A stretch of DNA of 64,000 nt from Gammaproteobacteria bacterium (GTDB taxonomy: Bacteria > Pseudomonadota > Gammaproteobacteria > Steroidobacterales > Steroidobacteraceae): positions 34,197-98,196 of the forward strand of contig JAQGOG010000093.1 of assembly GCA_028293765.1 (NCBI GenBank), in the 5' to 3' direction. Under the pieces are notes generated by a model. It was not told where the DNA came from, ran no database searches, and saw nothing but the letters and a program-made list of their open reading frames with translations. Positions 2,274 to 48,779 of this stretch are shown here, piece after piece. Both the position numbers and the translations under genes were made by a program. The stretch's first letter is position 1; every line of letters starts with the position of its first letter.

Positions 2274-3395
2274 ATGCCGCACCTGATCACTGCTCCGACG
2301 CAACTGACGATCGAGCTCGATGGCGGACAGCGCTTCACCGTCCACCCGATCTGGCTGCGGGAGCGCTGTCCGGATGCGCAAACGTTCGACCTGCGAACGG
2401 GTCAGCGTTTGCAGGACCCTTCCGATCTCGATTTACAGTTGGCCCTGACCGCCGTGTCGGAACCGGAGCCCGGGCGCATCCGGGTGCGTTTCAGCGATGG
2501 GCATGTGGCCGATTTCGTGGCGCGGGAGATTCTGGCGGAAGCGGTGCTTAAGCCCGGCGAGCAGGACATTCCGGCCCCGCGGCTCTGGAATGGGACGCTG
2601 ACGGGCTTCCCTCGAGCCGAGTGGGATAGCCGCCCGGACGATGCCACTCTGGCGGGCTGGATCACGGGTTTCCTCGAGTATGGCTTTCTCATTCTGACGC
2701 GGGTGCCGCCGGTTCCCCGCACCATCCTGCAGGTCGCGGCCACGTTCGGGTTTACGCGAGAGACCAACTTCGGTCCCCTGTTTGAGGTGCGCTCTGTGCC
2801 GGATGCGAGTGATCTCGCGTATACCTCTCTGCCACTCGATCCGCACACCGACAATCCCTATCGCGCGCCGGTGCCGGGCGTGCAGCTGCTGCACTGCCTG
2901 GTGAACGAGACTTCCGGCGGCTTATCCACTCTCGTGGATGGTTACGCGGCCGCGCAGGCGCTGCGGGTACGCGACATCGAGGCGTTTCAGCTTCTGTCCC
3001 GAACTCCGGTACAGTTTCGTTACCGGGACGAAACGACGGAACTGGTCGCCAGCGCGGCGCCAATCGAGCTCGATATCATGGGGCGGGTGCACGCGGTGCA
3101 TTTCAGTCCCCGCTTGGATTTCGTGCCGCTACGGCCGCCGCGCGAGCTTGCGGACTACTATCGTGCTCGTCGTGCGTTCGATCATCTGCTGCGCTCCCCT
3201 GAATTCGAAATCCGCTTTCTACTGGAGCCGGGTGAGCTTCTGATGATGGATAACCGGCGGCTGCTGCACGGACGGACGGGATTTGATCCCGCGCAGGGGC
3301 AGCGTCATCTGCAGGGATGTTATATCGACATCGACGGGCCACGGAGTCTGTATCGCGTACTGCGCCGGCGGCTGTCATCCGGGGGAATCTCATGA
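2274..3395 (+). CDS. tmpA: Fe(II)/2-oxoglutarate oxygenase, TmpA-like (gamma-butyrobetaine hydroxylase family)
   Basis: The 373-residue protein has the two-part build of gamma-butyrobetaine hydroxylase relatives: a small N-terminal domain (about 8-90, with WLRERC) and a TauD/TfdA jelly roll. The iron facial triad is visible as H191-x-D193 (in DPHTDNPYR) and a distal His at about 332 (LLHGRTGF), with a 2-oxoglutarate-binding Arg near 344. The N-terminal Cys3His zinc site of true butyrobetaine hydroxylases is missing. TmpA hydroxylates C1 of 2-(trimethylammonio)ethylphosphonate, and the next gene, a TmpB-like HD oxygenase overlapping by 4 bp (ATGA), is its known partner. I chose the ATG at 2274 because GAGGTAAC lies at good spacing. 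If not TmpA, another quaternary-ammonium hydroxylase is likely. Confidence 0.75.
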   Translation: MPHLITAPTQLTIELDGGQRFTVHPIWLRERCPDAQTFDLRTGQRLQDPSDLDLQLALTAVSEPEPGRIRVRFSDGHVADFVAREILAEAVLKPGEQDIPAPRLWNGTLTGFPRAEWDSRPDDATLAGWITGFLEYGFLILTRVPPVPRTILQVAATFGFTRETNFGPLFEVRSVPDASDLAYTSLPLDPHTDNPYRAPVPGVQLLHCLVNETSGGLSTLVDGYAAAQALRVRDIEAFQLLSRTPVQFRYRDETTELVASAAPIELDIMGRVHAVHFSPRLDFVPLRPPRELADYYRARRAFDHLLRSPEFEIRFLLEPGELLMMDNRRLLHGRTGFDPAQGQRHLQGCYIDIDGPRSLYRVLRRRLSSGGIS

Positions 3396-3970
3396 GCCAG
3401 ATGGTCAGTTTTCGCAGAATGGAGGACGGCACACGCGAGGACTACCTCCTGCTGGATCAGTCGGAGCGGGACTACGCGGTAGGCTTGCCCGATCGCGTGC
3501 TGGACGGGCTGCGCAGGCTCGATCACTCCCTGCAGGGTTATCCGGTCAGCCGGCTCGAACATTCGCTGCAGGTGGCGAGCCGGGCGCTGGCTGACGACGC
3601 CGATGACGAATTGATCGTCGCGGCGCTGATCCACGATATCGGTGATGAGCTGGCACCCTACAATCATGCGGAGATCGCCGCGGGAATTCTGCGGCCGTAT
3701 GTCCGGCCCGAGGTGACGTGGATCGTTGAGCAGCATGGGTTGGTGCAGTCGTACTACTACGTGCACCACATGGGTGGTGACCGGAATGCGCGCGATCGGT
3801 TGAAGGGACATAAGTGGTATGCCGCCTGTGAGGCGTTCTGCGCGCGATGGGATCAGGTGTCGTTCGACCCGGATTACCCGTCGAAGCCACTCGAGGCGTT
3901 CGAGCCGCTGGTGCGCAAGATTTTCAGCCGGCCGGCCCACGATCCACGGTACACCGGTCGGGACGGGTAG
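3392..3970 (+). CDS. tmpB: HD-domain di-iron oxygenase, TmpB/PhnZ-like
   Basis: This 192-residue HD-fold protein belongs to the small mixed-valent di-iron oxygenases (PhnZ, TmpB, distantly MIOX) that cleave C-P or C-C bonds with O2. Candidate iron ligands are His57, His81-Asp82 (LIHDIGD), His92, His115 (EQHG) and Asp154 (RWDQ), in the family order. The spacing between the HD pair and the third His is shorter than I would expect for PhnZ. The tail FDPDYPSKPLEAFEP is typical of the TmpB group. TmpB converts the alpha-hydroxylated phosphonate made by TmpA to glycine betaine and phosphate. The start codon overlaps the stop of the upstream oxygenase (ATGA), implying translational coupling. No phosphonate transporter is seen nearby. 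Confidence 0.75.
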   Translation: MSQMVSFRRMEDGTREDYLLLDQSERDYAVGLPDRVLDGLRRLDHSLQGYPVSRLEHSLQVASRALADDADDELIVAALIHDIGDELAPYNHAEIAAGILRPYVRPEVTWIVEQHGLVQSYYYVHHMGGDRNARDRLKGHKWYAACEAFCARWDQVSFDPDYPSKPLEAFEPLVRKIFSRPAHDPRYTGRDG

Positions 3971-47607: not shown

Positions 47608-48779
47608 AATGTCGCGGCCGCGTCGCCGATCCTTTCCAGGACGTAACGGCGAATGTCGAGGCTGAAGTCCTCCATGGGGGCATAGTAACCGCGCTCATGC
47701 ACTCGCGCAGCGATCCCTTGTTGCACGGTCTCGCAGATCACCCAGTCCTGGCGGTTGACGACATCCCAGAACTCCGTTGTATCGGACGGGTCGAAGCCCG
47801 GCTTCTCGAGCTCGTACGGCTCGAACAGGAAGTGGCAGGTGATGTCGGTACGCTCGGCAGAGCGGGGCCGCAGGATGAACACCGCGGCGTGATCGCAGGC
47901 GAGGCTCACGAAGAGGTTGGGGTAGAGGAGCTCGCCTTTGTGGCGCACTTGTTCATTAGCATTGAGCGTCGGAAATGGCCGGCGCTGCGTCATGCCGGAC
48001 TTCGTAAACGTATATGCGCCCTCGCGATGCGGGATACCGCGTTCCCAATCGAGGTTGGCGCCTCCCCGGTCACGGAATGCGGGGACGACGGCGCACAGCT
48101 CGGGATGCACGCCAGCGCAGTGATAGCACTCGTTGTAGTTCTCGCAGATGACTTTCCAGTTCGCGGCCACCTGGTACTCGATCGTATGGCCGATACGCAG
48201 TTCAATCAGCGGATAACGCCGCACGCGTTCGGGCGCGCCGGCAATCTGCTCGTGCAGGGTCTTAGCCGTGCCGGGCGTGAGATGCAGGAAAACGAATCCG
48301 GCCCAGGACTCGACACCCACCGGGTACAGACTGAAAGCCGACTTGTCGAACCCGGCCTGGCCCGTCAGATAGGGCGCCGCGATGAGTCGGCCGTCGAGGT
48401 CATAAGTCCATTGGTGATAAGGGCACATGATGCGCCCCGAGACCAAGCCGCCCGGCAGCGAGGGTGCGCCACTAACAGCACCGCCTTCCGGTCGGCAGAG
48501 ACGGGCGCCGCGGTGGCGACAGACGTTGTAGAAAGCCCGCAGCTGTTTTTCACGGTTGCGCGTCAGGATGATGCTCTCGCCGAGGACGTCGAGCACTCGA
48601 TGCGCCCCTGCCGCCGGCAACTCTTCCTCGCGGCCGATGCAGATCCATTCGCGACAGAAGATCCGCTCCTTCTCCAGCGCAAACACGCGCTCCGATCGAT
48701 ACCAGCTCGAGGGAAGCGTCGGTTCCAGGCCGGCCACCGGGAGGCTGGCCCCCGGCAATGGTGAGTTATGGGAACTCAT
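47604..48779 (-). CDS. Rieske non-haem oxygenase alpha subunit, GbcA-like
   Basis: The 391-residue oxygenase has a Rieske 2Fe-2S domain with C-x-H in NVCRHRGARLC and C-x2-H in MCPYHQWTYDLDG, and a catalytic domain whose mononuclear iron site shows ENYNECYHCAGVHPEL (two His) and a downstream Asp in RQDWVICETVQQG. The WICIGREEELPAAG start and the ECYHC segment are typical of the GbcA/stachydrine-demethylase branch that removes methyl groups from betaines. The spacer between the Rieske motifs is about 29 residues, longer than usual. No matching reductase gene is adjacent. Confidence 0.88.
   Translation of the reverse strand: MSSHNSPLPGASLPVAGLEPTLPSSWYRSERVFALEKERIFCREWICIGREEELPAAGAHRVLDVLGESIILTRNREKQLRAFYNVCRHRGARLCRPEGGAVSGAPSLPGGLVSGRIMCPYHQWTYDLDGRLIAAPYLTGQAGFDKSAFSLYPVGVESWAGFVFLHLTPGTAKTLHEQIAGAPERVRRYPLIELRIGHTIEYQVAANWKVICENYNECYHCAGVHPELCAVVPAFRDRGGANLDWERGIPHREGAYTFTKSGMTQRRPFPTLNANEQVRHKGELLYPNLFVSLACDHAAVFILRPRSAERTDITCHFLFEPYELEKPGFDPSDTTEFWDVVNRQDWVICETVQQGIAARVHERGYYAPMEDFSLDIRRYVLERIGDAAATL

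Follow-up and report, generated by a model that had tools for sequence, protein, structure and literature searches.

We examined a 64,000-nucleotide stretch (the window) of contig JAQGOG010000093.1 from a Gammaproteobacteria bacterium of the family Steroidobacteraceae, in which two adjacent genes encode a homologue of the Fe(II)/2-oxoglutarate (2OG) oxygenases (protein A) and an HD-domain protein (protein H; Table 1). The two open reading frames (ORFs) overlap in an ATGA, as the initial annotation of this DNA had pointed out, an arrangement consistent with translational coupling. That annotation read the pair as TmpA/TmpB-like enzymes for the oxidative breakdown of a trimethylated phosphonate, with the caveat that the true substrate may differ. 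Our analysis bears out the tandem of a hydroxylase and an HD oxygenase, with A nearer to TmpA than to BBOX and the predicted fold of H nearest to PhnZ and TmpB, but it suggests that the caveat was the better half of the note. We propose, with a probability of roughly 55%, that A and H work in series on a quaternary-ammonium compound that is probably not a phosphonate, and that H is a di-iron oxygenase but not a TmpB.

Table 1. Features of the A-H locus, in window coordinates.
Feature	Position	Strand	Basis
A: Fe(II)/2-oxoglutarate oxygenase homologue, TmpA/BBOX family, 373 aa	2274..3395	+	ORF, domain and profile scores, tree
H: HD-domain protein, 192 aa; shares six metal ligands and (by prediction) the fold with HD di-iron oxygenases, but not part of the TmpB/PhnZ group	3392..3970	+	profile scores, ligand conservation, predicted fold, tree
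ATGA stop/start overlap of A and H	3392..3395	+	sequence
A Asp180 codon, equivalent to TmpA Asn187 / BBOX Asn191 / TMLH Asp231	2811..2813	+	alignment; role of position: PMC9296572, PMC7764450 (partial texts)
A Arg280 codon, equivalent to TmpA Arg288 (kept)	3111..3113	+	alignment
H Asp85 codon, at the HDIG-His place of TmpB/PhnZ-type proteins	3644..3646	+	alignment

Protein A has the butyrobetaine-hydroxylase architecture that had been assigned to it, combining a Pfam TauD domain (150 bits) with GBBH-like_N (34.5 bits). The iron ligands (H191, D193, and H332), the 2OG arginine (R344), and the aromatic cage for a trimethylammonium group (F166, F170, Y183, and Y350) are all in place. The earlier statement that A has no zinc site also stood: only the first of the three cysteines in the CPC..C set of BBOX has a counterpart (C32), and TmpA likewise lacks the site. 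Among proteins in the PDB, A scored 210 bits against TmpA (6npb), 139 against human BBOX, and 96 against DfmD. On the NCBIfam TmpA model (NF049936) it reached 361 bits, under the curated cut-off of 400, with our yardstick, the TmpA of locus L072, at 523 bits; on the BBOX model (TIGR02409) it scored 269 bits against a cut-off of 415.

According to the accessible part of the DfmD paper (PMC9296572), TmpA holds its phosphonate through N187, N287, and R288, and BBOX holds phosphinate through N191 and N293; the numbering of the TmpA crystal chain (6npb) runs six higher than the paper's, judging from the motif and residue match. Only one of the three TmpA ligands is kept in the window's A, in which N187 is replaced by D180 and N287 by P279, with R288 matched by R280. 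The Asp at the Asn187 column is found in all 16 rows of the clade that contains A (the A clade) and in none of the 27 other printed rows, the TmpA clade among them, and it recurs in 120 of 120 homologues among the matches listed of 5,751 found. At the N287 column, the 16 A-clade rows have Pro (11), Ser (1), or Asn (4). The Asp that TMLH has in place of BBOX Asn191 is believed to contact the alpha-ammonium group of its substrate (PMC7764450, as far as its text was available), and D180 is a TMLH-type Asp at that position; because of this role, the site that recognizes a phosphonate in TmpA may, judging from the alignment, recognize a cation in A. The replacement of both acid-binding Asn of BBOX, together with the score on TIGR02409, led us to reject the possibility that A is a true BBOX.

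A maximum-likelihood tree of 44 rows places the window's A in the 16-row A clade (99/99 support) and not among the TmpA rows; the A clade is sister to an eight-row group containing the five-row TmpA clade (100/100). At the level of sequence, A is thus supported as being nearer to TmpA than to BBOX. The type of HD neighbor tracks the hydroxylase clade: an H-type gene lies within 3 kb of 15 of the 16 A-clade rows, and all four TmpA-clade loci (L041, L042, L142, and L146) have an HD gene bearing a YLGE gate and the HDIG-His. Elsewhere in the eight-row group, the HD gene at L141 has the HDIG-His and a variant gate, and no HD gene was detected beside L040 and L049. A distinct BBOX-like clade of eight rows, made up of L052 and seven loci of the Gemmatimonadota type, likewise adjoins H-type genes, divergently in the seven; this clade and BBOX are possibly joined falsely in the tree, which leaves the A clade unaffected. 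The tree takes in 10 of the 36 sites from a phylum-wide search for A-like proteins, and leaves out L043/L073 (411 bits on the TmpA model, with an in-frame stop), a fragment (L088), and duplicates (L071, L072, L074-L079, L083, L084, L087, L001, L032, and L046).

Protein H has all six di-iron ligands (H57, H81, D82, H92, H115, and D154), each of which is conserved without exception in an alignment of 43 relatives and present in 79 of 79 rows of a wider set, about half of whose rows were picked by a pattern already demanding the first His and the HD pair. Conservation of H goes beyond chance, with 7,908 of 8,000 scored candidates matching it at E<=1e-3. The alignment of H with PhnZ and TmpB covers only the HD segment of about 50 residues (26 and 23 bits, respectively), and H scored 28.3 bits on the TmpB model (NF049941, cut-off 300) and 36.3 bits on the Phn-HD model (TIGR03276, cut-off 214.6). 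The TmpB-type protein of L072 is itself slightly below both cut-offs (290.8 and 209.9 bits), so what counts is its gap to H and not the cut-off alone. H also lacks the YxxE gating loop given for PhnZ and TmpB in the accessible part of an HD-domain review (PMC8177086), having L and Y at the aligned places, and lacks the HVAAK motif and about 20 residues beyond it. At the place of the HDIG-His, which we read as the fifth conserved histidine of PMC11203657 (available in part), H has D85, an Asp shared by 77 of 79 relatives. Finally, a branch with 100/99 support separates H from the TmpB/PhnZ-type rows, in a tree where L132 and the TmpB/PhnZ rows form adjoining long branches; the A clade is unaffected by this. 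Together, the scores, the missing gate loop and HDIG-His, and the tree placement led us to reject H as a TmpB or PhnZ.

A predicted model of H has a PhnZ/TmpB/MIOX-like fold, with PhnZ as its best match (17.3), followed by TmpB (16.6) and MIOX (11.6). H scored 13.6 bits on the Pfam MIOX family (PF05153), under the cut-off of 25, and 35 of 43 relatives show a weak match (E<=1); although a weak relation is visible, we rejected H as a MIOX, to which it is 15% identical and whose chain is 258 residues long. When 150 genomes were searched for MIOX genes, neither they nor the controls gave a match, and the search therefore shows nothing. H is therefore predicted, from the modeled fold and ligands, to be a di-iron oxygenase and not a TmpB. 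Of the earlier description of H as a PhnZ/TmpB-type HD oxygenase, the His/Asp ligands and the nearest fold remain, but not the strict type.

In the reaction sequence that we propose, A would hydroxylate one carbon of a trimethylammonium substrate and H would then use its di-iron site to cleave the bond next to the introduced hydroxyl, giving a shorter betaine that would join carnitine or glycine-betaine catabolism. The substrate would have trimethylammonium at one end; its other group, at the site used for an acid in TmpA and BBOX, is probably cationic or neutral. We infer the substrate class from the kept aromatic cage, and likewise infer a second cationic group near Asp180, C-C cleavage, and the nature of the product. 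Cleavage of a C-C bond to give a betaine acid appears more likely than C-P cleavage, because phosphonate-side residues are missing in H and betaine- and carnitine-pathway genes accompany the pair in relatives. The leading candidate is an omega-trimethylammonio amino acid such as trimethyllysine, which would be cut between C2 and C3 to gamma-butyrobetaine; alternatively, a shorter trimethyllysine homologue would be cut to glycine betaine. These are favored because of Asp180, the kept Arg280, the PotF-like importer of relatives, and the carnitine genes of L167. Beta-alanine betaine was also considered, and a literature search gave no lead. We further suggest, more tentatively and with less than even confidence, that H represents a widespread group of HD di-iron oxygenases that form the second half of pathways initiated by various hydroxylase types and cleave C-C and not C-P bonds. 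In the window's case, A would beta-hydroxylate a trimethylammonio amino acid such as trimethyllysine and H would cleave the product directly to a betaine acid, which would amount to an aldolase-free bacterial path to carnitine and glycine betaine.

The reading closest to the initial annotation is that the pair degrades the trimethylated phosphonate 2-trimethylaminoethylphosphonate, with H a far-diverged but functional TmpB. TmpA is indeed the best characterized relative of A, PhnZ and TmpB are the best fold matches of H, and glycine betaine, the known product, would suit the betaine context; A also comes within 39 bits of the TmpA cut-off, retains the R288 equivalent and the HTDNPYR motif, and has two H-linked clade members above that cut-off (L167, 422.5 bits; L044, 403.2 bits). 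We nonetheless consider this reading improbable: D180 and P279 replace two phosphonate ligands in A, the TmpA clade does not include A, the YxxE loop, the HDIG-His, HVAAK, and the residues after it are missing from H, and TmpA-TmpB pairs of the known type occur in the same class as separate clades. Moreover, the C-P lyase gene phnJ was not found in the window's genome, with the E. coli control detected, and no phosphonate family was the best match for any scanned neighbor gene of the window or related loci, A aside; the remark that no phosphonate transporter or phn regulator lies nearby thus holds for these neighbors, the rest of the window being unscanned for such families. Automatic annotation would call the A proteins of L044 and L167 TmpA, though their HD neighbors are not TmpB. 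The Phn-HD model found only H and two weak HD paralogues in the window's genome. Two HD proteins of this genome, L085 and L086 (contigs C138 and C179), are about 27% identical to H, have HDIS in place of HDIG, and have a longer loop after the distal His.

The A-H pair is maintained in further lineages. Among 349 genomes of the window's phylum, Pseudomonadota, H-type proteins occur in 49 (E<=1e-15), A-like proteins in 29 (E<=1e-25), and both in 21; our genus table was counted by hand from these searches. A hydroxylase gene lies within 600 bp of H at 20 of 63 non-redundant H loci, on the same strand at 17, the window and L004 being merged with L087 and counted once. For loci with long enough flanks, the count was 19/61 within 600 bp and 0/47, 1/41, 1/38, and 0/36 in the farther bins, which are the sole control for this linkage; the near-bin counts lean upward because some of the hydroxylase and betaine seeds (PhyH, TauD, sterol desaturase, sox, bet, and carnitine) had been chosen after such genes were noticed next to H. 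The genomes and rows are related and their counts not independent, so that Fisher values for these associations are overstated in this respect; L009 and L138 are one locus from two collections, and L011 and L018 come from one isolate. Gene calls were made by a simple script that miscalled some opposite-strand A and H genes, and pairings were therefore taken from tblastn coordinates.

The hydroxylases adjacent to H are of several kinds, namely the A clade, the separate BBOX-like clade, and PhyH-type, TauD, and sterol-desaturase-family proteins. PhyH-type 2OG oxygenase genes abut or overlap H (distance 0) at L095, L097, L112, L119, L125, L127, and L174, a second kind of hydroxylase-H tandem, which at L174 is followed by a TauD gene. 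None of the PhyH proteins scanned (L125, L127, and L174) exceeded any NCBIfam cut-off. On a Phaeobacter inhibens plasmid (L035, 9992-12474), an H-type gene whose product is named 'inositol oxygenase family protein' precedes a sterol-desaturase-family gene and a PanB-like gene. Class II aldolase genes adjoin H-type genes at L007, L038, L133, L136, and L170, the last of which also has A and a choline-type binding protein.

A choline, betaine, or carnitine homologue lies within 6.5 kb at 10 of the 36 H loci with flanks of at least 6.5 kb, and at five of the seven A-linked ones among them, many of the betaine matches being homologues at only 24-50% identity. On the P. aeruginosa plasmid pF045_1, the order is LysR / A, H, choline ABC substrate-binding protein, choline dehydrogenase, and aldehyde dehydrogenase, and sox, betA, BADH, and GbcA-like genes accompany the pair in Caulobacterales. 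At L018, sarcosine oxidase beta and alpha genes and an AraC regulator precede A, H, betaine-aldehyde dehydrogenase, and choline dehydrogenase. The DJ-1/PfpI domain of this regulator, scanned in its 98% twin at L011, is taken to place it in the GATase-1-like AraC class, whose members include CdhR and GbdR, regulators for carnitine and betaine (PMC5806209, partial text). L167 reads choline-type binding protein (257 bits, cut-off 379), H, A, an ORF, a BKACE-like gene, carnitine dehydrogenase (413.7/414), and a BBOX-like gene (306/415). L172 is from the same taxonomic order as the window; there, H and a BBOX-like gene have dimethylglycine-dehydrogenase-like and sarcosine-oxidase genes as neighbors, and an MTTB-like gene lies at a distance of 7 kb.

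In the nearest relative, L004 (H 91% identical), an ORF for an SBP_bac_8 solute-binding protein ends 7 bp ahead of A. A gene at L016 akin to it scored 382 bits on the putrescine-binding PotF model (cut-off 636), and L005 has a relative of this PotF-scoring gene. A PotF-like binding protein lies near H at L004, L005, L013, L016, and L017, whether or not A is present, and several of these loci also have permease, class III aminotransferase, Rieske, and PuuC-like aldehyde dehydrogenase genes, a catabolic cluster common to the window's near relatives. No L004-type gene lies upstream of the window's A; its nearest homologues in the genome are 42% identical and on other contigs. The genome does have homologues of sarcosine oxidase alpha (soxA, 68%), choline dehydrogenase (betA, 71%), and carnitine dehydrogenase (54% and 44%). 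The nearest betaine-type match in the window is a Rieske oxygenase (47628-48740), about 27-29% identical to GbcA-like proteins and 44 kb from the pair.

A number of observations weigh against a joint role of A and H in quaternary-ammonium catabolism. With respect to the proteins, the features that A shares with TmpA, including the two clade members above the TmpA cut-off, have been noted; the four Asn-bearing A-clade rows (L139, L140, L044, and L045) carry W, A, and M in place of three of the cage residues; and MIOX, which cleaves C-C bonds, is farther from H in fold than PhnZ and TmpB. With respect to linkage, 28 genomes have H without an A-like protein and 8 the reverse, and no hydroxylase was detected within 600 bp at 42 of 61 H loci. 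Among the seven A-linked H loci with 6.5-kb flanks, two are exceptions to the linkage with choline, betaine, or carnitine homologues, namely the window itself and L005, whose only betaine-type gene is a GbcA-like Rieske (30%). Near the window's pair, no sox, bet, or choline-binding-protein homologue was found among the seeds tried; the window search included no carnitine dehydrogenase seed, but the genome's homologues sit on other contigs. Trimethyllysine in particular is disfavored because of the low score of A on the trimethyllysine dioxygenase model (TIGR02410, 172 bits, cut-off 268) and because the window's genome has no second full-length BBOX-like gene to use the gamma-butyrobetaine product.

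Some of this evidence would fit a reading in which A performs a single hydroxylation step in carnitine catabolism, on gamma-butyrobetaine or another compound, and H is an accessory for something else. L139, an A-clade member on a contig without H, lies beside BKACE-like, carnitine-dehydrogenase, and thioesterase-part genes, and similar genes lie near the A-H pair of L167. However, L167 has its own second BBOX-like gene, which would make A redundant there, and the replaced acid-binding Asn, the TIGR02409 score, and the tight A-H overlap also make this reading unlikely. Less probable still is that H is a metal-dependent phosphohydrolase only incidentally linked to A, as its database name ('predicted HD phosphohydrolase'), weak SAMHD1 matches, and the sharing of the six-ligand motif by some bimetallic phosphohydrolases (PMC11203657, partial text) might suggest.

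The likeness of A and H to known hydroxylase-oxygenase tandems is well supported, but identity with TmpA/TmpB is not. TmpA/TmpB of Leisingera caerulea, which acts on 2-trimethylaminoethylphosphonate, also sets a BBOX-family hydroxylase with an aromatic cage beside a six-ligand HD protein, with the fold predicted for H. PhnY*/PhnZ (2-aminoethylphosphonate) and GmPhnY/GmPhnZ (methylphosphonate) likewise use a 2OG hydroxylase and then an HD oxygenase (PMC10574752, accessible part). TMLH and BBOX share with A its domains, iron and 2OG residues, and cage, but differ from it in profile score and, in the zinc site, in what A lacks; the portions of the literature on either that were available mention no HD partner. 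In the accessible text of a 2020 review, the HD-domain oxygenases are three, MIOX, PhnZ, and TmpB (PMC8177086), to which that of a 2023 review adds G. maris PhnZ and the fungal fusion PhoF, both for phosphonates (PMC10574752). Our literature searches, in the partial texts retrieved, found no description of such hydroxylase-H pairs, the related papers covering HD-domain proteins, SAMHD1, and phosphonates.

If our proposal is correct, a larger group of HD oxygenases tied to hydroxylases beyond phosphonate metabolism would widen the known chemistry of HD oxygenases, and the names 'HD phosphohydrolase' for H and 'TmpA' for H-linked proteins would need correcting. The pair would also provide an extra two-protein route into quaternary-ammonium catabolism.
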